Source: Alphaproteobacteria bacterium (GTDB lineage: Bacteria; Pseudomonadota; Alphaproteobacteria; Rickettsiales; SXRF01). From it: a stretch of 64,000 nt of DNA. Positions 24,068 through 61,336 of this stretch are shown piece by piece (position 1 is the stretch's first letter; every line of letters starts with the position of its first letter). A program made the position numbers and the translations under genes. The stretch lies in NCBI GenBank assembly GCA_025360605.1, contig JANYBV010000018.1, positions 62,001 through 126,000 on the forward strand. The letters run 5' to 3'. The notes beneath the pieces were generated by a model. It saw only the letters and a program-made list of their open reading frames with translations. It searched no databases and was not told the origin of the DNA.

Positions 24068-24225
24068 GATACCAAGGTGTGATGTGTAATGTGCCGCAGG
24101 ATTAAACCGTGAGAGCCCCCTTGCTGTCAAGTAACAAAAAGGTAGTGTAATTCAGTATTTTATTGTACGTTCGTTGCGTATGTTTATGCCTTTATTCACT
24201 CACACAAGCGATTACACTAGTTTCT

Positions 24226-24966
24226 ATGCCTGATTTTGAGTCCCCACCGTCACCTGAAATGCAGCGTGAAATTAAAAGCCGCCTGAAGATTGCCGAAAAG
24301 GTGCGCACGGGTGAGTACTACCGCGAGGCGATGACGATGTACGATGTGAGCATCAACGACCCCATGTCGGAACGCTATATTTACATCTTTATTACCGGCT
24401 GTTCGGTGATTATATTTTTAATTTCGTATTTCGCCCTGCAGGGACTCTATCCGCTGGAAAGCGCTGTTCCGCTCACATACCTGACGCATGATAGTGTTGA
24501 AGATATGCCGCATGTCAAATCTCTTCAGGCGTTTAAAAATGAAAATCCAAGCGATGCGCTGCTGCGCTTTCTGATCAAGAACTACATCGTTATGCGTGAG
24601 GAATATGATATCAGTACCTTTGACCGTGATGTCAACGGTGTAAAAAGCCAGAGTACCGAGCCGGTATTTAAGGATTTTCAGCAATTTATTGATCCACGTA
24701 ATACAGAGAGTCCTATTAAGGTCTACCAGCGGCACTCCAAACGCAAAATTCGCTTGCTTGGCCCCCCGCGCCGTGTGCCGGAGGGAATGGAGGTTATCTT
24801 CGAAGCTCTGATTGACAGCCGTACCGATGTAAAAAAGTCTCACTGGAGGGCAAATATTTCTTTTGACTATAGTGGCATTGCACTTGACGAGAAATCAGAT
24901 ACAGTAAAGCCTATGAATTTTATCGTCACGGAGTATCATAGCAAACGATTGCAGGATATTAAATAG
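24226..24966 (+). CDS. virB8: Type IV secretion protein VirB8
   Basis: 246 aa inner-membrane assembly factor of the T4SS core. A cytoplasmic N-terminus ('LKIAEKVRTGEYYREAMTMY') is followed by one membrane segment (about residues 50-70) and a periplasmic NTF2-like domain. The sequence resembles Rickettsiales VirB8 more than the plasmid type. I start at 24226 (MPDFESPP); no clear ribosome binding site precedes it. virB9 starts 2 bases after the stop. virB10, virB11 and virD4, which usually follow, are not here. Confidence 0.82.
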   Translation: MPDFESPPSPEMQREIKSRLKIAEKVRTGEYYREAMTMYDVSINDPMSERYIYIFITGCSVIIFLISYFALQGLYPLESAVPLTYLTHDSVEDMPHVKSLQAFKNENPSDALLRFLIKNYIVMREEYDISTFDRDVNGVKSQSTEPVFKDFQQFIDPRNTESPIKVYQRHSKRKIRLLGPPRRVPEGMEVIFEALIDSRTDVKKSHWRANISFDYSGIALDEKSDTVKPMNFIVTEYHSKRLQDIK

Positions 24967-24968
24967 AC

Positions 24969-25778
24969 ATGGCCCCAAAAAAAATGAATCGTTTTACAAA
25001 AGTTTGCTCCGGTGTTTGCCTGATGGTCGCGCTTCTGCTTACAAATATTTCCACGCCTGCCTATGCAACGCGTGAATCCAAGCCGATACAAATTGATCAC
25101 CGCGTCCACCTGATCGTGTACCAGCCTGATGCTGTTTATAAATACACGGGTCATTACCGTTATGCATCGCAAATTGAATTCGCGCATGATGAAGAAATAA
25201 AAACTATTTCCATGGGTGATTCTACCGCTTGGTTGTTGAATCCGTCGGGTTTCCGTCTGTTCCTGAAGCCTGTTGAGCAGGATGCCACCACGAATATGAC
25301 GTTGATCACCAACAAACGTACCTACCTGTTCGAGCTGCACGCCCGCGAAACGGACGACATCGATGACAAGGACATGGTGTTTATCACCCGCTTTGTCTAT
25401 CCCAGCAGCAATGATGATCAGGGACAGACGGTCAGTAATTACCTTGATGCGGTGCCTAATCCTGAAGGCGAACCGCTCAAATATAACCTAAAATACTCTA
25501 TTTCCGGAACAGATGTGATCGCTCCCATCCGCATATTTGATGACGGTCAGTTTACCTATTTTCAGTTCCGCAACAAGAATGCGGATATACCGGCTTTCTT
25601 CATGACGGATGAAAAAGGTAACGAAGCGCTCATCAATTACCGCACCCGTGGTGATTATATTATTGTAGAGCGGGTAACGAAGCAGTTTACGCTACGTCAC
25701 GGCACCCAGATAGTATGCGTTTTTAATGATGCGTGGAATCCGGTGCCTGTGCTTCCTCCTGAAACAAAAGACAAATAA
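24969..25778 (+). CDS. virB9: Type IV secretion protein VirB9
   Basis: 269 aa. A signal peptide (cleavage after about residue 35, 'STPAYA') leads to the VirB9/CagX fold: 'YRYASQIEFAHDEEIKTISM' with 'STAWLLNPSGFRLFLKP' at the N-terminal domain, and 'QFTYFQFRNKNADIPAFFM' plus 'FTLRHGTQIVCVFND' at the C-terminal domain that packs against VirB7 and VirB10 in the outer-membrane ring. Coupled to virB8. The other T4SS genes of the window lie 28 kb away. Confidence 0.9.
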   Translation: MAPKKMNRFTKVCSGVCLMVALLLTNISTPAYATRESKPIQIDHRVHLIVYQPDAVYKYTGHYRYASQIEFAHDEEIKTISMGDSTAWLLNPSGFRLFLKPVEQDATTNMTLITNKRTYLFELHARETDDIDDKDMVFITRFVYPSSNDDQGQTVSNYLDAVPNPEGEPLKYNLKYSISGTDVIAPIRIFDDGQFTYFQFRNKNADIPAFFMTDEKGNEALINYRTRGDYIIVERVTKQFTLRHGTQIVCVFNDAWNPVPVLPPETKDK

Positions 25779-26871: not shown

Positions 26872-27873
26872 ATGTTACCCATTGATAGCGAACAACAAAA
26901 AATAAACTCTCTATCGTCTGCCACCCGCGTTGATTATGAGGAAGAAATACATCGCCTGCGCAAGCAGATGAATGCGGTGATTCTGGCGCATTATTATCAG
27001 GATGACGAGATTCAGGATCTCGCCGATTATGTTGGCGACTCACTGGAGCTTGCGCGCCGTGCAGCGGATACCAAGGCTGATGTCATTGTGTTTTGCGGTG
27101 TGCGTTTCATGGCGGAAGGAGCAAAGCTTTTAAACCCTGAAAAGCTGGTGCTGATACCGGACATGAAGGCAGGCTGCTCGCTGGAAGATTCCTGTCCGCC
27201 GGAGGCATTTAAGGCATTTAAGGAACAGCATCCCGACCATCTGGTGGTTACCTACATCAATTGCTCGGCAGCAGTAAAAGCGTTATCGGATATCATCGTC
27301 ACTTCGTCGAATGCCGAGGCGATAATCCGCCAGCTGCCACACGATCAGAAAATTATTTTTGCCCCTGATAAATATTTAGGCGCATACCTCAATAAAAAGA
27401 CCGGCCGCGACATGCTGCTGTGGAACGGCACCTGTATGGTGCATGAGCGTTTTTCTGAAACCGAACTGGTGAAACTAAAAACCCGTCACCCTGAAGCTAT
27501 CGTGATTGCTCATCCGGAATGTCCGGAGCATCTGCTGGCCTACGCGCAACATATCGGTTCAACTTCTTCATTAATCCAATACAGCGCCGAACATGCCGGT
27601 AGCAGCTTCATCGTACTCACCGAACCGGGAATCATGCATGAGATGAAAAAACGCTCGCCCAACAGTATATTCTATGACGTACCGGGAATGTCCGGTGGTG
27701 CTTGTATTTCTTGCAATGCCTGCCCGTATATGAAACTCAATACGCTGGAAAAAATCTATAAAGCCATGGTCAGTCACAGCCCTTCCATTGAATTATCACC
27801 GGAATTAATGGTGCGTGCCCGTAAGCCGCTGGAGCGTATGCTGGAAATGAGCAGGGCGATCGGGCGGAATTAG
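26872..27873 (+). CDS. nadA: Quinolinate synthase A
   Basis: Condenses iminoaspartate with dihydroxyacetone phosphate to quinolinate for NAD synthesis; a [4Fe-4S] enzyme. 333 aa. Seen: 'AVILAHYYQDDEIQDLADYV', 'VVTYINCSAAVKA', 'WNGTCMVHERFS', 'HPECPEHLL' and the C-terminal cluster cysteine region 'GACISCNACPYMKLNTLEK'. nadB and nadC are not adjacent. Likely has its own promoter (26819-26849). Confidence 0.96.
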   Translation: MLPIDSEQQKINSLSSATRVDYEEEIHRLRKQMNAVILAHYYQDDEIQDLADYVGDSLELARRAADTKADVIVFCGVRFMAEGAKLLNPEKLVLIPDMKAGCSLEDSCPPEAFKAFKEQHPDHLVVTYINCSAAVKALSDIIVTSSNAEAIIRQLPHDQKIIFAPDKYLGAYLNKKTGRDMLLWNGTCMVHERFSETELVKLKTRHPEAIVIAHPECPEHLLAYAQHIGSTSSLIQYSAEHAGSSFIVLTEPGIMHEMKKRSPNSIFYDVPGMSGGACISCNACPYMKLNTLEKIYKAMVSHSPSIELSPELMVRARKPLERMLEMSRAIGRN

Positions 27874-27923
27874 TACAGTTCCAAAGAAACCTCTGTAGCT
27901 TTTCGTACCCTTTGGTGAATTAT

Positions 27924-27954
27924 AACCAATTGATTCCATAGACTATAATTGGTT
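27924..27954. repeat. Inverted repeat AACCAATT/AATTGGTT
   Basis: AACCAATT at 27924-27931 and its complement AATTGGTT at 27947-27954 enclose a 15-base spacer in the AT-rich gap after nadA. No T run follows directly, so it is not an obvious terminator; it may be an operator or a weak hairpin. Confidence 0.6.
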
Positions 27955-28009
27955 CATTAATTACGGCTTGATAACCCCCCCCAATTCATTATCCTTATAG
28001 GTGATGTAA

Positions 28010-28039
28010 CCTTTGGTAACCGATTCGAATCGGCAAAGG
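28010..28039. repeat. Interrupted palindrome upstream of acidic orphan gene
   Basis: A perfect 14-base palindrome CCGATTCGAATCGG (28020-28033) is flanked by CCTTTG (28010-28015) and CAAAGG (28034-28039), its complement, with a four-base interruption on the left side. It lies 62 bases before the start of the orphan gene and could be an operator or a recombination site. Confidence 0.7.
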
Positions 28040-28044
28040 ACATT

Positions 28045-28070
28045 CTCTGGAGGACTACAAACTCTGGAGG
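28045..28070 (+). repeat. Direct repeat CTCTGGAGG x2
   Basis: CTCTGGAGG occurs at 28045-28053 and again at 28062-28070, start to start 17 bases, in the leader of the acidic orphan gene. Each copy contains a ribosome-binding-like GGAGG, but no start codon follows at proper distance. Confidence 0.6.
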
Positions 28071-28100
28071 GCCAGATTGCTCGCATGTAGGAGATACATC

Positions 28101-28523
28101 ATGCGTTTGCAGCTGTTTGCGGGGAATTGGGCGGTTGCGGATGTCAAGTCGGCCGAAGACAAATCGGGCCTCCGGCTCGAGACGATCGACGGCAAGCTCA
28201 AGGTCACCAACGTCCGCATGGACTTGGCGATCTCGGGTGGCATCTACGACTGCTACGACCTCGAGGAAGTCGACACGAACGGCGATCTCGCCGACGTGAT
28301 CCCGACGGAAGAGTTCACCCTCGAACCCCGGGATTCGGTCGAGTACGATCTCAGCGGTCACTACCTGCTCCGCTCGTACAACACCGAGGACACCATCGAC
28401 GCCGTGAACAACTCCGATCTCCCCGACGAACTCGTCGATGAGATCGAAAACCACGTCGAGGATGGCAACTTCCCCGCCACCTACCAGGTTAAGGAGGTGA
28501 ACGTCTTCTTTAGCGTCCTTTAA
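28101..28523 (+). CDS. Acidic orphan protein, unknown function
   Basis: 140 aa, no family recognised. By hand count 31 Asp/Glu against 10 Lys/Arg, so the protein is extremely acidic; no signal peptide or membrane segment. The start at 28101 has AGGAG 7 bases upstream. Codon choice differs from the neighbours: CTC, GTC, GAC and ATC dominate, where surrounding genes favour CTG, GTG and GAT, and GC is about 60%. It has its own terminator downstream and a palindrome and direct repeats upstream, so it is a self-contained unit, probably acquired from another genome. Such acidity is seen in DNA-mimic proteins, in phage anti-restriction proteins and in salt-adapted proteins, but nothing here proves any of these. 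The opposite-strand reading (27957-28454) lacks a start site and is a shadow. Confidence 0.75.
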   Translation: MRLQLFAGNWAVADVKSAEDKSGLRLETIDGKLKVTNVRMDLAISGGIYDCYDLEEVDTNGDLADVIPTEEFTLEPRDSVEYDLSGHYLLRSYNTEDTIDAVNNSDLPDELVDEIENHVEDGNFPATYQVKEVNVFFSVL

Positions 28524-28567
28524 GGGATGCTGGGGAAGAAATTAAGCACAACCCGTCAAAAGGTTGG

Positions 28568-28604
28568 AGAAACAGGGCCGCCACAAGCAGCCCTGTTTCT
28601 TTTT
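28568..28604 (+). terminator. Rho-independent terminator after acidic orphan gene
   Basis: AGAAACAGGGC (28568-28578) pairs perfectly with GCCCTGTTTCT (28590-28600) around an 11-base loop, and four further T follow to 28604. It stands 45 bases after the orphan stop codon. Confidence 0.92.
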
Positions 28605-28639
28605 GTACTCGGATCATGCGGTTATTTTTTAGACAGCAC

Positions 28640-29947
28640 TCAGGCCGCTTCGTTTTCCGGCTCAGCGGACGTAGCCGCTGATGCATTAATGGAAGTTGCC
28701 TGTTTAGAGGCGTTCGGTTCCAGCAGCTCTTCATACACATCGAGCGTCTGCTGGCACATGGCATCGAGCGAGAAGCGGCGCGCATTCATCACCGCCTGTT
28801 CGGCCATCCAGTGCATGGTTTCATCATCAATCGACAACGCATAATCAATACATTGCGACAACACATCCACATCCCCTGGTGGAATCAGCCAGCCGGTGGC
28901 ATCATTAATCACCGTTTCCTGTGGGCCGCCATGGTTGGTGGCGATGACAGGCTTGCCCATGGCCTGTGCTTCCAGCACCACGCGGCCAAACGCCTCCGGT
29001 TCCAGTGAGGTGGCCACCACCACCTTGGAAAGCATATAGGCTTCACTGACATAATGGGTGTGGCGGGCAATGCGCACATGGCCTTCAAGTTCTGACTTGG
29101 TGATCAACGCTTCGAGTTCCTGACGGTAAGATTCATGCCCTTTATCGTCACCCAGAATCACGGCGAAGAATTTACGGTGCGGCAGGCGGGCAAGTGCGCG
29201 AAGAAATACGTCCTGACCTTTCCAGCGGGTGATGCGGCCAGGGAAAAGAATGAGCGGAAGTTCATCTGGCAAGCGCCACTGGCGCGTCAGCTCGATCATG
29301 CGCTGCGGCGAATGGGCGAAAGGATTGAACCATTTTAAGTCGACACCGCGGTGGATGACACGCAGGCGCTCGGGGTCAATTTTATAATGTTTGTTAATGT
29401 GGTCGGCGATGAAATGCGAAATAGCGATGACGCGCTCGCCGCGTGCCATGATGCTGTTGTAGCGGCGCTTGAATAATCCTTTGAGGCCGTAGGTTCCGTG
29501 AAAGGTGGTCACGAAGTGGCACTTGGTTTTTTTAGCCGCCATCCATGCGCTCCATGCCGGTGCGCGGGAACGGGCATGAATGATATCGACGTTATATTTT
29601 TTAATGATCTTGGCAAGCTTTCGGCTGTTGCGCCAGATGCGAAAAGGATTTTTGCTGGCCAGAGGCAGGGTAATGTGGGTTGCGCCGCAATGCGCCAGCT
29701 GCGAGGTCATGGTGCCGCCGGAAGAGGCAACCAGCGCCACGCCTTCGGCTTTCATGATAGCGCGGGCAATTTCCACCGTGCCGCGTTCGACACCGCCGCT
29801 ACGGAGTTCTGGCAATACCTGCAAAATAACCGGAGGTTTTTCAGTTGATTTTTCTTTTAGTTTTTCTGGCAGCGTCTCTGACACCGGAGATTTCTCGGGC
29901 GTTGAACCGGCGGGCAGGGTATTTTTTTCTGCTGTTTGCATTTGCAT
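28640..29947 (-). CDS. Glycosyltransferase family 4 protein
   Basis: 435 aa from the chosen start. GT-B fold: the N-terminal domain opens with 'VILQVLPELRSGGVERGTVE', the nucleotide-sugar domain has 'LFPGRITRWKGQDVFLRAL' and the donor-binding 'EPEAFGRVVLEAQAMGKPV' (Glu at both ends of the EX7E motif) followed by 'ATNHGGPQETV'. It resembles enzymes of lipopolysaccharide or exopolysaccharide assembly. A charged Lys/Glu/Pro segment of about 40 residues precedes the domain, and the tail is rich in Ala and Ser. It stands alone, divergent from the hydrolase at 29988. Confidence 0.88.
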   Translation of the reverse strand: MQMQTAEKNTLPAGSTPEKSPVSETLPEKLKEKSTEKPPVILQVLPELRSGGVERGTVEIARAIMKAEGVALVASSGGTMTSQLAHCGATHITLPLASKNPFRIWRNSRKLAKIIKKYNVDIIHARSRAPAWSAWMAAKKTKCHFVTTFHGTYGLKGLFKRRYNSIMARGERVIAISHFIADHINKHYKIDPERLRVIHRGVDLKWFNPFAHSPQRMIELTRQWRLPDELPLILFPGRITRWKGQDVFLRALARLPHRKFFAVILGDDKGHESYRQELEALITKSELEGHVRIARHTHYVSEAYMLSKVVVATSLEPEAFGRVVLEAQAMGKPVIATNHGGPQETVINDATGWLIPPGDVDVLSQCIDYALSIDDETMHWMAEQAVMNARRFSLDAMCQQTLDVYEELLEPNASKQATSINASAATSAEPENEAA

Positions 29948-29987
29948 CTGAGCTATCTTATACACGAAGTATGAAAAGGCTGTAAAC

Positions 29988-30782
29988 ATGAACACACAAA
30001 CCGTCAAGAACGAATCCGATATTTCACCATCTTTTATTCCCCCGTCGTACCAAGAATTTCCGGACGGGCGTCGCATTGCCTACCACCTGACCGAGGGAAG
30101 TCTTCCGGGGGTGGTGTTTTTGGGTGGGTTCAATTCCGACATGAACGGCTCCAAAGCGCTTCATCTTGAAGCAGTCTGCAAAGCAAAGGGGCAGCGTTTC
30201 CTGCGCTTTAATTACACCGGACACGGCAATTCATCGGGGCGTTTTATCGAAGGAACGATTGGCGGATGGAAGCGTGATGCCGTTGATATGCTTGATACAT
30301 TGGCTGCCGGTAAAAACATTCTCGTGGGTTCCAGCATGGGCGGATGGATCATGTTGCTGGCGGCGCTGGAGCGCAAAGAAAACGTATCAGGTTTGCTGGG
30401 TATTGCCAGCGCTCCGGATTTCACAGAAAACCTGCTCTGGGAAACCGCAACGGAAAAGCAAAAAGTGCAATTTTTGGAAGAGGGGGTGATTCAGGTTCCC
30501 AATTGCTATGGTGGCGACCCGTATCCCATTACCTACCAGCTCATTCAGGAAGGGCGTAAACATTTGTTACTGGACGGCGATATACCCCTCGATATGCCGG
30601 TACGCCTGATTCATGGCACGCTGGATGAGGATGTGCCGTTTATGATGTCGCAGCGCCTGATGCAGCGGCTGACCTCCACGGACGTAACCCTTACACTGGT
30701 CAAAAACGCCGGACACCGTTTATCCGAGCCCAGCCAGTTGAATATGATCGCTAACCTGTTATTTTCTTTACAAAATAGTTAA
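29988..30782 (+). CDS. Alpha/beta hydrolase, ABHD10/palmitoyl-thioesterase-like
   Basis: 264 aa. Nucleophile elbow 'ILVGSSMGGWIMLLAAL' (Ser at about residue 108), oxyanion region 'GVVFLGGFNSDMNGSKA', 'FNYTGHGNSSG', acid 'HGTLDEDVP' and catalytic His 'NAGHRLSEPSQL' are all in place. The pattern is close to the mitochondrial ABHD10 thioesterase group. No signal peptide, so cytoplasmic. Substrate unknown, probably an acyl thioester or ester. Confidence 0.85.
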   Translation: MNTQTVKNESDISPSFIPPSYQEFPDGRRIAYHLTEGSLPGVVFLGGFNSDMNGSKALHLEAVCKAKGQRFLRFNYTGHGNSSGRFIEGTIGGWKRDAVDMLDTLAAGKNILVGSSMGGWIMLLAALERKENVSGLLGIASAPDFTENLLWETATEKQKVQFLEEGVIQVPNCYGGDPYPITYQLIQEGRKHLLLDGDIPLDMPVRLIHGTLDEDVPFMMSQRLMQRLTSTDVTLTLVKNAGHRLSEPSQLNMIANLLFSLQNS

Positions 30783-54151: not shown

Positions 54152-56578
54152 ATGAATTTCACCATTTCACGTCGAAAAACTCAAAAAGCAGCCTACTCGA
54201 AACTTGAGGTTTCAGCGGCAACCTTTATCCCGTATGAATATCACTGGGACCGCGAGACTATTCTCACCAATAAAAAAGAATTTGTACAGATCCTGAAGCT
54301 GGAAGGTTTCTCGTTCGAAACCGCCGACGACGAAGATGTCGACATGAAAAAGCTGGTGCGTAACTCGCTGCTCAAGAGTATGGCAGACGGGACGTTCGCG
54401 GTCTGGTTCCACACATTGCGCAAGCGCCAGAGTGCCTATCCGGGCGGAAAACAACCGCCGGGTTTTGCCGCGTATGTGGACAAGCTTTGGCATGAGAAGC
54501 ATTCCAACAAAGATTCCTACATCAACGAAATTTACATCACCGTGGTACGCCGTGCGGATACCAAGGGTGCGGCCAAAGTGCATCACTATCTGAAAAAAGC
54601 ATCGGAAGCGGGCAACAAAGCCGCGCAGGTGGATGCCATGCGCGATGCACACAAGGAACTGGCGGAAGCCGTGGCGCGTCTTGGCGCAACGTTGAAAGAT
54701 TATGGCGCCAAGCTGCTCACCACCTACGAAAACGAACACGGCGTATTCTCCGAGCCGATGGAATTCCTCGCGATGATCATCAATTGCGGATTCACGCAGC
54801 CGATGCGTCTTACTGCCACCAACATGGCCCATTACCTGCCGCTGTACCGGTTGTATTTCGGCTCACGTGCTATCGAAGTCTCGGGTGCGCCGCGAAAACG
54901 TTTTGCCGGTCTGGTGAGCATCAAGGAGTATTCACCGGCGACGGCGGCAGGACTTCTGGATGGCTTTTTGCAATTACCATTCGAGTTCCTGATATCGCAA
55001 TCCTTCTCGTTCCATAACCGCAGCGTGAACATCAACCGCATGCAGATCCGCCAGCGTCGAATGATGGCGGCGGAAGATGCGGCGGTGTCGCAGATCGCTG
55101 AAATTTCCGATGCGCTTGATATGGCGATGTCGGGCCATGTGGCGTTCGGCCCGCACCATCTGACGGTGATGTGCTTTGAAGAAAGCCTGCCTGAGCTGGA
55201 AAAAGTATTATCGCTTGCCATTGCCGAGCTGGTGAACCTTGGCATAAACCCAGTGCGTGAAAAATTTGTGATGGAGCAGGCCTTCTGGGCGCAGCTTCCG
55301 GCAAATTTTGATTGCGTGGCACGCGGCGCGGACATCAATACAATGAACCTTGCGGGCTTCGCCAGTTTGCACAATTATCCGACCGGAAAAATTGCCAACA
55401 ATCATTGGGGTGATTCGGTGACGGTGTTCGACACATCTTCGGGCACGCCCTATTTCTTCAATTTTCACAACCGCGACGTGGGTCACACCACCATCATTGG
55501 GCCGACCGGTGCGGGTAAAACCGTATTGCTCAACTTCCTGTGCGCACAGGCACAGAAATTCAATTGCCGCGTTTTCTTTTTCGATAAAGACCGTGGCGCG
55601 GAAATCTTTATCCGTGCGATAGGTGGCAAGTACACCATCATCGAGCCAGGAGAAAAATGTAATTTCAATCCGTTGCATTTGCAGGATACCTCGGAAAACC
55701 GCACCTTTATCGCCGAGTGGATTCATACCATGGTGACGGTGCATGACGAGCCGTTCATGGCGGAAGACATGGAGCGCATCAACGATGCGGTGGCGGGTAA
55801 CTATAAGCTTGCCAAAAAAGACCGTATGCTGCGAAATATAGCTCCCTTCCTTGGGATTGAAGGTCCGGGAACACTCGCCGGACGACTGAAAATGTGGCAC
55901 AGTGGCGGGGCGTATGCCGGATTATTTGACAATGAAATAGACGTGGTGGATTTCAGCATTGGTAACTCATTCGGCTTTGAAATGGGTGAAGTGCTGAGAG
56001 AGCGTGTGAGCCTTGAGCCGACGCTGTTGTATCTCTTCCACCGTATCAACCTTGCGCTGGACGGAACTCCGACGATCATCATTCTCGATGAAGCGTGGGC
56101 ACTTATCGACAATAAAATTTTTGGTGGCCGTATCCGCGACTGGCTGAAGACGCTGCGTAAACTCAACGGCATGGTGGTGTTTGCAACACAATCCGTGGAA
56201 GACGCGACAAACAGTGCGATCAGTGAAACCCTGATCCAGCAAACGGCAACGCAGATATTCCTGCCCAACCCGAAGGCGACCGATGCGTATAAAAAAGCCT
56301 TCATGGTGAGCGACCGTGAATTCAATCTCTTAAAAACCACCGATCCGGGCAGCCGTTACTTCCTTGTAAAACAAGGTAAGGACGTGGTAGTCGCACGTAT
56401 CGATTTATCCGGTATGGATGACGTGATCAACGTTCTGTCTGCCCGTGCAGAAACCGTTTCAATACTTGACGAGGTTCGTGCTGAGGTGGGCGACGCACCG
56501 GAAGCATGGATGCCTCTGTTTCAAGCCAGAGTTAGACTGGAGAGAGAGAAGTTAACTACAAAAGAGAGCAAAAAATAA
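54152..56578 (+). CDS. virB4: Type IV secretion ATPase VirB4
   Basis: 808 aa. N-terminal VirB4-specific domain, then the ATPase: Walker A 'IIGPTGAGKTVLLNFL' at about residue 449, Walker B 'TIIILDEAWALIDNKIFGG' at about 641, and 'VVFATQSVEDATNSAISETL' (arginine-finger/sensor region). It powers assembly and substrate transfer at the inner membrane. The sequence is the Rickettsiales-like type. virB6 starts 1 base after the stop. Confidence 0.96.
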   Translation: MNFTISRRKTQKAAYSKLEVSAATFIPYEYHWDRETILTNKKEFVQILKLEGFSFETADDEDVDMKKLVRNSLLKSMADGTFAVWFHTLRKRQSAYPGGKQPPGFAAYVDKLWHEKHSNKDSYINEIYITVVRRADTKGAAKVHHYLKKASEAGNKAAQVDAMRDAHKELAEAVARLGATLKDYGAKLLTTYENEHGVFSEPMEFLAMIINCGFTQPMRLTATNMAHYLPLYRLYFGSRAIEVSGAPRKRFAGLVSIKEYSPATAAGLLDGFLQLPFEFLISQSFSFHNRSVNINRMQIRQRRMMAAEDAAVSQIAEISDALDMAMSGHVAFGPHHLTVMCFEESLPELEKVLSLAIAELVNLGINPVREKFVMEQAFWAQLPANFDCVARGADINTMNLAGFASLHNYPTGKIANNHWGDSVTVFDTSSGTPYFFNFHNRDVGHTTIIGPTGAGKTVLLNFLCAQAQKFNCRVFFFDKDRGAEIFIRAIGGKYTIIEPGEKCNFNPLHLQDTSENRTFIAEWIHTMVTVHDEPFMAEDMERINDAVAGNYKLAKKDRMLRNIAPFLGIEGPGTLAGRLKMWHSGGAYAGLFDNEIDVVDFSIGNSFGFEMGEVLRERVSLEPTLLYLFHRINLALDGTPTIIILDEAWALIDNKIFGGRIRDWLKTLRKLNGMVVFATQSVEDATNSAISETLIQQTATQIFLPNPKATDAYKKAFMVSDREFNLLKTTDPGSRYFLVKQGKDVVVARIDLSGMDDVINVLSARAETVSILDEVRAEVGDAPEAWMPLFQARVRLEREKLTTKESKK

Positions 56579-56579
56579 T

Positions 56580-58268
56580 ATGCAGAAGGTTGGTTTCCTT
56601 CGCTTACTGACTGGCATGATCAGGCCGTGTCTATGGCTTGCGTTGTTGTGCTTTGCTTTTTTTACGGCGGCTGGTTCAATTCCTGCCTACGCTCATGACT
56701 TTGATGACGTTACCTACCTGTTTGATACTACGACAAATGAAGCCTGTCCGGGACCTAATTGCAAAGATGTGCTGGGCAGCTCAAAGGTACATAAAGTAGT
56801 CGCTTGTCCGGGCAACGGGCTGGCACGGCGCGTCATTCCCTGCGTGAGGAGCGTGATCCTCAAAGGCACCAATGATTTCCTTATCCCGTTTTCTGCATAT
56901 ATTGCAAGTACAGTGCAGGTGTGCTGTATCCTTGCGGTGATTTTTTGGGCTGTACAGATGATTTCAGGCAGCGACACCGCGCCGCTCAAGGATTCGATGG
57001 TCATGGCGGTCAAGATTGGCTGCGTCATAACTTTTACCAATAATTTTGGTGGTAATTCACTGGATCCGGGGGATCATCATGGCGGCAACTTTGGGCTGGT
57101 GCTGGATATCATGGAAGAGATGGTCACCATCGTCTCTGGCTACGTCATCAATGCCAGCCAGTTTGGTCTGGAGGGTGATTGTCCTAAATTTGCAGATACA
57201 GATAAGATTTATCTGGTGTGGGATGCAGTGGATTGCGCTGTGAATACGCTGGTGGGGGGGATATTTTCTCCCTTATCCATAACAGCTGGCATCATCGGGT
57301 TTTTAACGGCCTGCCTTTTTTCCAACACTATCGGATTTACGATCGGAACGGCTGGCCTTTACCTGATTTACAAGCTTCTATATGCCATTTTTAAATGCTG
57401 CTACATCTTCCTCACGGCCTATATGGGCATTGCCTTTATGGTGGTTATTTCTCCTTTGTTCATTCCTACTATTTTGTTTAAATCGACGAAGTCGTATTTT
57501 GATAAATGGCTAAGGCTTTTTATCAGCTATATTATCCAGCCGATGGTGCTGTTCGCATATCTCGCTATGCTGTTATCCGCGTTCGATGTAACGGTGTTCT
57601 CCAATAAAAATAAAAACTCCCTGTATTATGCCATCGCCGGACATGATCCCTGTTTCTATGTCGCTGCGGATACGGGGTGCGGCACCGGCAATGGATTCGG
57701 CGGCAAGCTTGGTACGTGGATCATGACCAATGGGTTTTATACGAATGTAGATAAGGCCGGTCAGGCTATGGCGATTGACTCAAAAGCTATTAAGAATGCT
57801 GGTCTGATGCCTAAAGATGCAGACGAATTGGGTGCGGCAGGGAAGGTCACCCAGCAGATGCTGACGTATTTAGCTACCAAGCAAAAAGGTACGATCGGCT
57901 CGATGGGTACAGACGGCAAAAAACCAAACTTCTTTCAAATTGATATTCCGGAAAAAACGGTTGACTGGACAAAGTTGGCGCGGGCCAATCAGTTTGATGA
58001 TTCGACTCCGGCGCTCAGCACTACATCCTATGTTTTGAAAATATTAGTTTCCGCCTTCATGGCATTGCTGACGGGCTATATTTTTTCACAGATGCTTGAC
58101 GTTATTCCGTTTATCGGTAGCGGGCTTGCGATGGGTGGTGGTGGCATCATGGATGGCAAGGTGTCTTCAATAGGCTTAGGAGATATGAATATTTCCGCTT
58201 CAAAGGCGGACTTTACTAAAAATCTAAAGTTCGGGGCCAATAAAAACAAAGGGGCAGGATCCTTATAG
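56580..58268 (+). CDS. virB6: VirB6-family T4SS channel protein, copy 1
   Basis: 562 aa. Signal-like N-terminus ('LWLALLCFAFFTAAGSIPAY'), a cysteine-rich periplasmic part ('EACPGPNCKDVLGSSK'), then the TrbL/VirB6 membrane core with 'KCCYIFLTAYMGIAFMVVIS' and 'PLFIPTILFKSTKSYFDKWL' (conserved Trp), typical for Rickettsiales VirB6. The C-terminus is a small Gly/Met-rich segment and a charged tail. Followed 3 bases later by copy 2. Confidence 0.85.
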   Translation: MQKVGFLRLLTGMIRPCLWLALLCFAFFTAAGSIPAYAHDFDDVTYLFDTTTNEACPGPNCKDVLGSSKVHKVVACPGNGLARRVIPCVRSVILKGTNDFLIPFSAYIASTVQVCCILAVIFWAVQMISGSDTAPLKDSMVMAVKIGCVITFTNNFGGNSLDPGDHHGGNFGLVLDIMEEMVTIVSGYVINASQFGLEGDCPKFADTDKIYLVWDAVDCAVNTLVGGIFSPLSITAGIIGFLTACLFSNTIGFTIGTAGLYLIYKLLYAIFKCCYIFLTAYMGIAFMVVISPLFIPTILFKSTKSYFDKWLRLFISYIIQPMVLFAYLAMLLSAFDVTVFSNKNKNSLYYAIAGHDPCFYVAADTGCGTGNGFGGKLGTWIMTNGFYTNVDKAGQAMAIDSKAIKNAGLMPKDADELGAAGKVTQQMLTYLATKQKGTIGSMGTDGKKPNFFQIDIPEKTVDWTKLARANQFDDSTPALSTTSYVLKILVSAFMALLTGYIFSQMLDVIPFIGSGLAMGGGGIMDGKVSSIGLGDMNISASKADFTKNLKFGANKNKGAGSL

Positions 58269-58271
58269 CGC

Positions 58272-59714
58272 ATGTGTAGCAAAACCGGTATTTCAGGGCT
58301 GGCCGTTTCCAAAGCGATCATGGTGTTGTGCGTGATGCTGGTGGTGTGCTGCATGTCTGTAAAACCGGCATTTGCGGGTCCGCCTCCGACCTCACTAACG
58401 CTTAAGGCTTGCGCTGCTGCGGGCGGATTTCCGCCGGAGGCGCTTTCGGGGCCTATTGTCTATTGTGTACAGGATAAAATTAAATCGTCAGTCACAGGAG
58501 CGCTATCCAGTATCTCGACGTATTTCCAAAGCACAACCTACGTCTTATTCATTCTGGCAGTTACCATGCACGGCGCTAAAATGATCAGCGGGGAGAGGGG
58601 TATTAACGGCAAAAGCATGTTGCTCATGGTGAAGATAGCGCTCGTTGCTTTTTTTGCCAATAACCTCGGCGGATTTGCCGAAAAAGTCTTTAATATGATC
58701 GACGAAATCACTACGGATGTGGTGGGAGCCTATTCCCCGTGGAAGATGATAGACGATATATTGGGGACGCTGTTTGGGTTTTCTCCTGGAATTTTGCTTA
58801 CGCAGGGGCTTGTCTGGCTTGGTGCGGGGATGATGTCAGGCACGTCCGGCATCGCGTCTTCGTCGGCTCTGATCGTTATGTTTATAGAGCTGATTTTGTT
58901 TGTCATCGAGATCATCTACACCTTCCTGACCGCCTATATCGTTGTAGCGTTCATGCTTATCTTGTCGCCGATGTTTATTCCGCTGATTATTTTTCAGGCA
59001 AGTGAGCGCTACTTCAAAAAATGGCTGGATAATATTATCGGCGCCATGCTGGTGCCGGTACTGCTGTTTGCAGCGTTGTATTTTTCACTCGATCTTTTGA
59101 GCAATCGCATTGCCAAAATTTTTAAAGTGATTCTACCGGAATATAATTTCACTCTGCCGCCGGATCCTTCTCATCCGCCGGATTTCAGTTCGTTCTGGAA
59201 GATCAACCAATCATTGTTTTCGTATGATCTTGGGGTGGATCCCAATATGTATAACGCTGAAAAGAAAGTATTGGATACATCACCGGGTAAGACAGTGTTT
59301 GTACCTTCTGCCCATATCGTTATTAATCCGTTCAACCGTGGTGGTTTTGATGTTAATCCCTTCAATCCGCCGCAGGTAAATTTTGGTATTCATAACCGGA
59401 CAATTAATCAGGAGCTACTTCTTGCACTGATTACCTTGTGGCTCTTGATTGCTATTCTCAAACAACTTATTGAAAAAATGCCTGACATTGCTCAGGAAAT
59501 TGCCGGATCTGGTGCGGGGATTGCCCTCAGGCAGCCGAAATTACAGCAAAAAGTCGGGGAATTTAAACAAGATGCGGCCGGCGGTTTCGGAGTAATGGCG
59601 GGGGGAGTGATTGGTGGTCAGGCAGGTGCGGCTTCCGGCAGTGCGCGGGTGACAGAGGCAGGGGCCATTGGTGGTGGTGTGATTGGCCATATTTTAGCCA
59701 GGAAATCCGTATGA
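58272..59714 (+). CDS. VirB6-family T4SS channel protein, copy 2
   Basis: 480 aa with a signal-like N-terminus ('IMVLCVMLVVCCMSVKPAFA'), five to six membrane segments, and the VirB6 core 'IEIIYTFLTAYIVVAFMLIL' with 'SPMFIPLIIFQASERYFKKW'. The C-terminus has a glycine-zipper stretch ('GVMAGGVIGGQAGAASG'). It differs clearly from copies 1 and 3 outside the core, so the three are old duplicates, as in Rickettsiales. It overlaps copy 3 by 4 bases (ATGA). Confidence 0.85.
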   Translation: MCSKTGISGLAVSKAIMVLCVMLVVCCMSVKPAFAGPPPTSLTLKACAAAGGFPPEALSGPIVYCVQDKIKSSVTGALSSISTYFQSTTYVLFILAVTMHGAKMISGERGINGKSMLLMVKIALVAFFANNLGGFAEKVFNMIDEITTDVVGAYSPWKMIDDILGTLFGFSPGILLTQGLVWLGAGMMSGTSGIASSSALIVMFIELILFVIEIIYTFLTAYIVVAFMLILSPMFIPLIIFQASERYFKKWLDNIIGAMLVPVLLFAALYFSLDLLSNRIAKIFKVILPEYNFTLPPDPSHPPDFSSFWKINQSLFSYDLGVDPNMYNAEKKVLDTSPGKTVFVPSAHIVINPFNRGGFDVNPFNPPQVNFGIHNRTINQELLLALITLWLLIAILKQLIEKMPDIAQEIAGSGAGIALRQPKLQQKVGEFKQDAAGGFGVMAGGVIGGQAGAASGSARVTEAGAIGGGVIGHILARKSV

Positions 59715-61336
59715 AAATAAACATGCTATACACAACGCAGTATTCTTTTAAAAGGGCATCCTTTATGCGGTCTATATTAGTAATGATCATGATATGCCTG
59801 ATGATGCTTTCCTTATCCGCAAGTTCGGCGTGGGCGTGTACCCCCTCTTCACCATGCTTTGCGCCGCCTAACTATGAGCCGGGTATCTGCCAAAGCGATG
59901 GCACCTGTAAAGCCACCGGAGATTCTGACGGCGTATGTACGTCCGATCCGACCTACACCCCTAAAACGGCTGATCCGGGCAAGGGGATTATCTCGGTGGT
60001 GATTAAGGACATTAAAGACACCCTCAAACCTATGACTAAAAAGATGTTTGACGGCATTAGTCAGGATAGTGGCTTTAAGGGCGCGGTGTCGGCCGCGATG
60101 ACGCTTTATGTCATCATATACGCCATCAGCTTCCTGTTCGGGATGGTGCAGCTGACGGCGTTTGATTTCGTCATCCGCATGTTCAAAATCAGTGTGGTTG
60201 CCATGCTGATCAACGGAACCGGTTTTCAGGTATTCTCGGATATTGTCGTCAAGTTTTTTAACGAAGGTACGGATGCGCTGATCACTCAGGTATCGACCAT
60301 TGCGGTCAGTGGTACAACGCTGGGCGGCGAGCCATTTGACTGGATGGACAATGCCATTTTGGAACTTACGTCGGTGAAAATGCTGGTGACATTAATGGCA
60401 GCTGCACTGACCGGACCTTATGGATGGGTTATTATTGTAATACTGATGATCAGTCTTTATACCTTTATTAAAGCCATGCTCGGGGCGTTGTGGGTGTATA
60501 TTATGGCGTTGGTGTTGCGCACGCTGCTCTTTGGTTTGGCGCCACTGTTTCTGGCGTGCGTCATGTTCTCGCGCACCCGTCAGCTCTTCGATGGCTGGCT
60601 CAATCAGGTGGTCAATTCGTGTCTGCAGCCCATTTTCCTTTTTACCTTTTTTGCATTTTTTGTGCAGCTTATTAAAGCATCGCTTGAACAGGTGTTACAA
60701 ACCAATGTCTGCTGGACGCGTTTCGGGAGTGTCGCCGGTGCGGCATCTGCCGAGCATTACTGGCGCTTTGCCTTATGGAACTGCAATTCAAACCGTTGGG
60801 AGCCATTCGATGGTGTGTGGGGATTCACGGGTGCGGACAATGCGCCCGCCCACATGAGGGCAACCAAAGCCGATTGCGGGACGGGATCCCCGCCGGTTCA
60901 GCCACTCGGCATTATGCTGCCATTAATATTGTGGATCCTGTCGGATCTCGCTAAACGTTTTAATGAGATCGTGGTCAATATTGCGAAGGATATTGCCAAC
61001 GCTAGCACTGGCTTCAGTTATCAGGGACAAGGTTTCGGCGGTGACAAAGTCACGGGCGGCGGTAGTCCGGGCGGTGGAGCAGGTGGTGCCACACCGGGTG
61101 CTGGCGCAAGGCCGACACCGGGTGGTGGCGTTGGCGCTCCGGGAGCGCCAGCAGGTGGTGCAGCCGGTGGTTCAACTCCCGCACCAGGCAGCGTACAGGA
61201 TATGCTCAACCGGATGAGAGAAGCGGGCAGAAGGCCGGGAGTCGGAACTGGAACACCGCCAGCTCCACCAACACCGCCTGCCGGTGGTCCACCTGCAGCG
61301 CCTCCTGGGGGAATACCGCCTAAGCCACCCAAATAG
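59711..61336 (+). CDS. VirB6-family T4SS channel protein, copy 3, with Pro/Gly-rich tail
   Basis: 541 aa. N-terminal signal-like segment ('ILVMIMICLMMLSLSASSAWA'), Cys-rich periplasmic start ('CTPSSPCFAPPNYEPGICQS'), the membrane core with 'FGLAPLFLACVMFSRTRQLF' and 'DGWLNQVVNSCLQPIFL', then from about residue 435 a low-complexity tail of Gly, Pro and Ala ('GGGSPGGGAGGATPGAGARP', ending 'PPGGIPPKPPK'). Such tails are exposed and often bind proteins; PxxP patterns are frequent here. A small lipoprotein gene follows after 99 bases. Confidence 0.85.
   Translation: MKINMLYTTQYSFKRASFMRSILVMIMICLMMLSLSASSAWACTPSSPCFAPPNYEPGICQSDGTCKATGDSDGVCTSDPTYTPKTADPGKGIISVVIKDIKDTLKPMTKKMFDGISQDSGFKGAVSAAMTLYVIIYAISFLFGMVQLTAFDFVIRMFKISVVAMLINGTGFQVFSDIVVKFFNEGTDALITQVSTIAVSGTTLGGEPFDWMDNAILELTSVKMLVTLMAAALTGPYGWVIIVILMISLYTFIKAMLGALWVYIMALVLRTLLFGLAPLFLACVMFSRTRQLFDGWLNQVVNSCLQPIFLFTFFAFFVQLIKASLEQVLQTNVCWTRFGSVAGAASAEHYWRFALWNCNSNRWEPFDGVWGFTGADNAPAHMRATKADCGTGSPPVQPLGIMLPLILWILSDLAKRFNEIVVNIAKDIANASTGFSYQGQGFGGDKVTGGGSPGGGAGGATPGAGARPTPGGGVGAPGAPAGGAAGGSTPAPGSVQDMLNRMREAGRRPGVGTGTPPAPPTPPAGGPPAAPPGGIPPKPPK

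Follow-up and report, generated by a model that had tools for sequence, protein, structure and literature searches.

Genes of the kind known as ORFans are short, have no detectable relatives, occur as single genes and differ from their host in composition; many of those described are AT-rich, and a phage origin has been discussed for the short foreign ones. Polymorphic (nuclease) toxins have orphan immunity proteins that are small and acidic, each encoded by a solitary, foreign-looking gene in a slot of variable content, and such an orphan gene has, by definition, no adjoining toxin gene. T7 Ocr, a DNA mimic, has 116 residues, 34 of them acidic and 6 basic (PMC4872106). The gene described here shares small size and strong acidity of its product with Ocr and other DNA mimics, but the protein matches no family model, has more basic residues than Ocr and lies in no phage or plasmid context that we recognized. 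Like the ORFans, it is a short single gene with a host-unlike composition and without detectable relatives, but it is GC-rich in a mid-GC host and unusually acidic. With its small acidic product, its foreign look and its isolated place in a slot that varies, it resembles the usual picture of orphan immunity proteins, from which it differs in that the protein matches no Pfam immunity family (E limit 10) and that no cognate toxin gene lies nearby, its direct neighbors being nadA and a glycosyltransferase (GT) gene.

The gene occupies positions 28101 to 28523 on the plus strand of the window, by which we mean the whole 64,000-nucleotide stretch of DNA that was analyzed, from an uncultured bacterium of Rickettsiales type, and it encodes 140 aa, with an alternative in-frame start (TTG) at 28077. 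The GC contents of its first, second, and third codon positions are 0.62, 0.31, and 0.84, giving a strong three-base periodicity and a clear coding signature, and 140 codons remained open in a single random frame of the same composition in 0.7% of 2,000 simulations. The minus-strand open reading frame (ORF) opposite it (27957 to 28454) is best seen as its mirror. The ORF at 28101 to 28523 is a genuine, unexplained orphan gene of the ordinary sort. A preliminary description had reported a strongly acidic protein of 140 aa and net charge of about -21, encoded between nadA and a GT gene, and both points were confirmed. Translation gave 31 acidic and 10 basic residues, a net charge of about -21 and a computed pI of 4.05, and the protein was more acidic per residue than those of all 47 window ORFs tested. 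To the left lies nadA (quinolinate synthase, plus strand, 26872 to 27873), named by sequence recognition, and to the right a GT4-type gene (minus strand, 28640 to 30076; Pfam PF00534 and PF13439) that converges on nadA.

The preliminary description knew of no homology for this protein, and the searches bore this out, with matches at chance level only. The profile search that it proposed, run with an E limit of 10 (a setting at which the HMMER filters remove most matches above about 0.1), returned 0 families from Pfam, PHROGs, NCBIfam and PADLOC. Among PDB sequences the best match had an E value of 0.45, and tblastn against 50,697 phage and 72,556 plasmid records gave no match better than E 0.3, the weak and partial ones including Vibrio phages (286 records; E 0.3 among the 20 matches listed) and Halorubrum at E 0.9. 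No relative was found in viral contigs with four protein scans and one DNA pattern or in genome contigs with one scan; the protein scans, that of genome contigs included, need an exact 8-residue match and therefore detect close relatives only. Rfam gave a single match, far under the gathering score. The same cassette was also sought in relatives, as had been suggested, but among 55 relatives' genomes the gene was present, at E values up to 0.01, in its own genome only and was missing from the other 54, two of them from the same genus. In wider sets, each of which, like the set of 55, includes the gene's own genome and overlaps the others, we obtained two matches at the level of the order (343 genomes; the own genome and one at E 0.005), four at that of the class (385 genomes; the own genome and three at E 0.004 to 0.08), and two at that of the phylum (398 genomes; the own genome and one of the three weak class-level matches). 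The weak matches were dismissed because chance expects such E values (0.004 to 0.08 per genome) over so many genomes; they fell in unrelated frames, recognized by eye as AMP-ligase-like, nucleotidase-like, FliD-like and HisA-like ORFs, and were rejected as relatives. Judged by these sequence comparisons, the gene qualifies as an ORFan within the collections searched. An AlphaFold model built from the single sequence without relatives reached a pLDDT of 51.9 and a pTM of 0.34, and Foldseek with this low-confidence model, BFVD included, gave no match under E 1.5; because the model is unusable, this outcome says nothing on the fold.

Codon choice had been described as unlike that of all neighbors, and this held for part of the evidence. 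The GC3 of the ORF (0.836) exceeded that of all 185 pieces of 140 codons each (maximum, 0.736) cut from 47 greedily chosen window ORFs, a control set that wrongly took in the antisense ORF at 27957 to 28454, and GC3 averaged over the window ORFs was 0.59. The ORF uses CTC and CTG at 10:2 and GTC and GTG at 9:3, whereas the share of CTC and GTC in these pairs is 30% in the window. The relative-codon-preference score, however, did not separate the gene from its host, 23% of window pieces being equal or below, and for this reason the claim of foreign codon use rests on GC3 and the CTC/GTC bias. These data support a foreign composition for the ORF. In a comparison limited to 140 codons and to crude gene calls in the references, six GC-rich references (two Myxococcota loci, Isosphaera, Sinorhizobium, Rhodococcus and Halorubrum) fitted the codons at 0.38 to 0.47 bits per codon versus 0.10 for the window, with the best fits, 0.47 and 0.44 bits, from the two Myxococcota loci. 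A locus of a same-genus relative (L050) also fitted at 0.34 bits, and two loci of Rickettsiales/Alphaproteobacteria type (L053 and L057) at 0.31 and 0.30 bits, much better than the window; a distant donor is therefore unnecessary, and the same-genus fit led us to lower slightly our estimate for a horizontal insertion. A haloarchaeal origin, an idea taken from the acidity, was set aside, as Halorubrum codons fitted no better than those of the five other GC-rich references and the protein includes 9 Asn and 5 Lys.

The nearest named relatives by nadA are metagenome-assembled genomes labeled Rickettsiales, Alphaproteobacteria or Pseudomonadota. The nadA and GT genes are near neighbors in nine genomes, namely 8 of the 15 searched (G000, G001, G002, G004, G006, G007, G008 and G009) and the genome of locus L055; of the remaining seven, four (G005, G018, G019 and G020) carry the two genes on different contigs, and in three (G003, G016 and G017) one or both escaped detection. 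By tblastn ends, the gap is nearly empty in G008 (about 12 bp, on a contig that stops inside the GT gene), G007 (about 70 bp) and G004 (about 100 bp). Measured from stop to stop, the filled gaps are 492 bp in L055, 766 bp here, 768 bp in G009, 1,124 bp in G006, 1,500 bp in G002 and 2,413 bp in G001. With families from Pfam, the gap of G001 encodes a sigma-54-type AAA protein and a 166-aa ORF, that of G002 a DUF7790 protein, and that of G009 a 239-aa protein to which no family was assigned. G006 has a rhodanese/YgaP-type protein and a 156-aa ORF, and L055 a 150-aa ORF that looks similar by eye. The gap is thus nearly empty in three genomes and filled, mostly with different contents, in six, indicating that this slot tolerates insertions. 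By eye, no mobile element, integrase or transposase was recognized among window ORFs of at least 170 aa, ARAGORN found no tRNA remnant, and short direct repeats around the ORF (for example, the 11-mers at 28098 and 28613, which agree at 10 positions) occur in about the number expected by chance by our own estimate. The window otherwise contains, as read from its ORFs by eye, housekeeping and type IV secretion genes. The latter form two groups, at 24163 to 25778 and 54152 to 61336, made up of VirB8 (Pfam PF04335) with a VirB9-like ORF and of a VirB4-like ORF and, after it, three VirB6-like membrane proteins, all but VirB8 named by eye.

The gene had been credited with its own leader, a good ribosome binding site (RBS) and a strong terminator, and all of these elements are present. 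An AT-rich stretch (36% GC) runs from the nadA stop to the leader (27874 to 28000) and holds a promoter-like site (27968 to 27995; TTGATA, 16 nt, TATCCT) at chance level, one being found versus 0.8 expected. A C8 run (27975 to 27982), whose length could vary, lies within the spacer of this site, the sole one of its kind upstream of the ORF; phase variation through the run was considered and rejected, since the window shows no excess of C7 runs and the promoter is no better than chance. The leader contains a perfect 14-bp palindrome, CCGATTCGAATCGG (28020 to 28033), separated from the ATG by 67 bases and flanked by the arms CCTTTG (28010 to 28015) and CAAAGG (28034 to 28039) of a wider inverted repeat, a putative operator or RNA hairpin. 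The direct repeat CTCTGGAGG follows in two copies (28045 to 28053 and 28062 to 28070) that also pair with each other in a predicted RNA hairpin. An AGGAG motif (28089 to 28093) serves as the RBS, with the ATG 7 nt downstream. In the predicted fold, CGCATG (28082 to 28087) can pair with CATGCG (28100 to 28105), so that the start codon would lie in the 3' arm of the stem and the RBS in the loop, and translation may therefore be controlled by this start-codon hairpin. Downstream, a predicted intrinsic terminator (28567 to 28604) consists of a hairpin at about 28567 to 28601, with 12 pairs and 2 inner pairs, and a T-run (28600 to 28604); an 85-nt stretch here folds at -30.4 kcal/mol (z score, -2.64). 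A simple terminator scan, whose three finds were all on the minus strand (0.9 expected), did not list the hairpin at 28567, probably because its stem has an internal mismatch. Against window controls, however, the leader structure was ordinary: its fold (z score, -2.35) ranked 4 among 34 picked gene starts, perfect palindromes 14 bp or longer number six in the window, CCGATTCGAATCGG included, and a comparably close 9-mer repeat occurs in 15 of 1,162 110-nt intervals, the leader site included. The leader was also sought in the other 54 of the 55 relatives at E values up to 0.1, with a sole match of 20 bases (E 0.03). A palindrome-binding repressor, another suggestion of the preliminary description, found no support beyond the palindrome itself, of which the genome holds one exact copy (in the leader) and one site at one mismatch.

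The reading that we favor, at a probability of roughly 30%, joins two parts: a horizontally acquired single-gene cassette, and an acidic product that inhibits a nucleic-acid-binding protein or a nuclease toxin. Horizontal insertion is probable; the inhibitory mechanism is plausible but tentative. A GC-rich source, either distant or a relative of higher GC content, would have supplied the cassette, which would have entered the permissive intergenic slot at which nadA and the GT gene converge. Its product would be a small acidic protein, presumably soluble, and its likeliest mode of action would be for the acidic face to bind and block a basic nucleic-acid-binding partner. Since no gene of a phage, plasmid or restriction system was recognized beside the ORF, we place orphan immunity to a nuclease toxin slightly ahead of DNA mimicry aimed at restriction enzymes or other proteins that bind DNA. 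The immunity reading would account for the same facts with no need of a phage and is, like mimicry, hypothetical. The codon-position GC pattern, a GC3 above all 185 pieces and the better fit of the six GC-rich references than of the window argue for this joint reading, as do the gene's restriction to 1 of 55 genomes, the varied gap contents among the nine genomes and a net charge of -21 in 140 aa, the most acidic per residue against the 47 window ORFs. Against it, nothing in homology, gene partners, fold or phenotype speaks for inhibition, for which acidity by itself is a weak pointer; neither an integrase or transposase, by eye, nor a tRNA was found, and flanking direct repeats are at chance number; and among host pieces the codon-preference score is unremarkable, while L050, L053 and L057 fit the codons much better than the window does. 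A bolder version, which we consider quite unlikely, holds that the protein is the first of a new family of acidic inhibitors, acting in nuclease immunity or by mimicry of nucleic acids. Their genes would move as single-gene cassettes, each with a structured leader that masks the start codon, and would insert at a permissive site in genomes of Rickettsiales type. If the inhibitory reading were true, the gene would add an unclassified defense- or competition-related protein; as things stand, it is another foreign-looking ORFan, and it mainly shows that the nadA-GT junction houses unrelated genes in different members of this bacterial family.

The alternative that survives best is that the gene is cargo of phage structural or other origin, now neutral or domesticated, and that its acidity has nothing to do with nucleic acids, as in a capsid decoration or secreted protein. 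This is possible though doubtful. The N-terminus MRLQLFAG may echo LNLQLFA, with which certain capsid and scaffold proteins of phages begin, and a phage origin is one discussed for short foreign ORFans, but PHROGs gave 0 matches, the four exact-8-residue scans of viral contigs found no relative, and Foldseek found none in BFVD under E 1.5, albeit with a poor model. The preliminary description had pointed instead to DNA mimics and anti-restriction proteins, which would make the gene a phage or plasmid remnant of a decayed element. The high negative charge stood, at a density (31 acidic and 10 basic residues of 140) to be set beside that of Ocr (34 and 6 of 116), and a lone, foreign-looking gene bearing its own terminator would fit; the four profile libraries, searched with 10 as the E limit, gave no known family, phage and plasmid matches were weak and partial (E 0.3 and 0.9), and no mobile genes were seen by eye in the window. 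What speaks for mimicry is the charge, and we judge this origin unlikely. Equally unlikely is a native gene, fast-evolving or newly arisen in the lineage, that was never acquired horizontally. It would agree with the lack of a donor relative and of any above-chance relative in the other genomes searched, with a codon-preference score inside the host range and with the same-genus codon fit (0.34 versus 0.10 bits for the window), but a GC3 of 0.84 where the window averages 0.59, the strong three-base periodicity and the gene's absence from two same-genus genomes argue against it. An assembly chimera or contaminating sequence, a concern already raised in the preliminary description, is very unlikely: the genome is in 57 contigs with a contamination value of 1.87 and the composition of the segment is unlike that of its flanks, but both flanking host genes are neighbors in relatives and lie here on one 243,642-bp contig, and the gap is filled in five of the eight other genomes. 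An integron gene cassette placed outside an integron, for which a single ORFan with a terminal hairpin and no promoter above chance might be taken, is hardly credible, since neither strand of 27870 to 28700 has an attC-like RYYYAAC...GTTRRRY pair and the integron integrase model TIGR02249 gave 16 matches in the gene's own genome with 0 over the cutoff, sub-cutoff matches occurring also in 14 of 14 control genomes.

A further observation concerns the palindrome TGTTTCACGTGAAACA, which we take to be a parS-type motif and which was sought at up to one mismatch in 11 genomes. It was absent from five of them, and a reversed-pattern control gave 0 in all 11; the window has no site within 3 mismatches. 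Four other genomes, the gene's own included, have three sites each, forming one cluster in each of G000, G001 and G007 and lying on two contigs in G002. The two genomes of genus g3 have far more, scattered over many contigs: 22 in G004 (all exact; loci L152 to L167) and 30 in G009 (28 exact and 2 with one mismatch). Most of the 22 sites in G004 have an A-rich left edge and a T-rich right edge in otherwise unrelated flanks, which suggests dispersed single sites rather than a transposon, and these sites perhaps serve a Noc-like ParB paralogue. One scattered site lies inside the nadA-GT gap of both genus g3 genomes (L049, 6072 to 6087; L051, 3909 to 3924).
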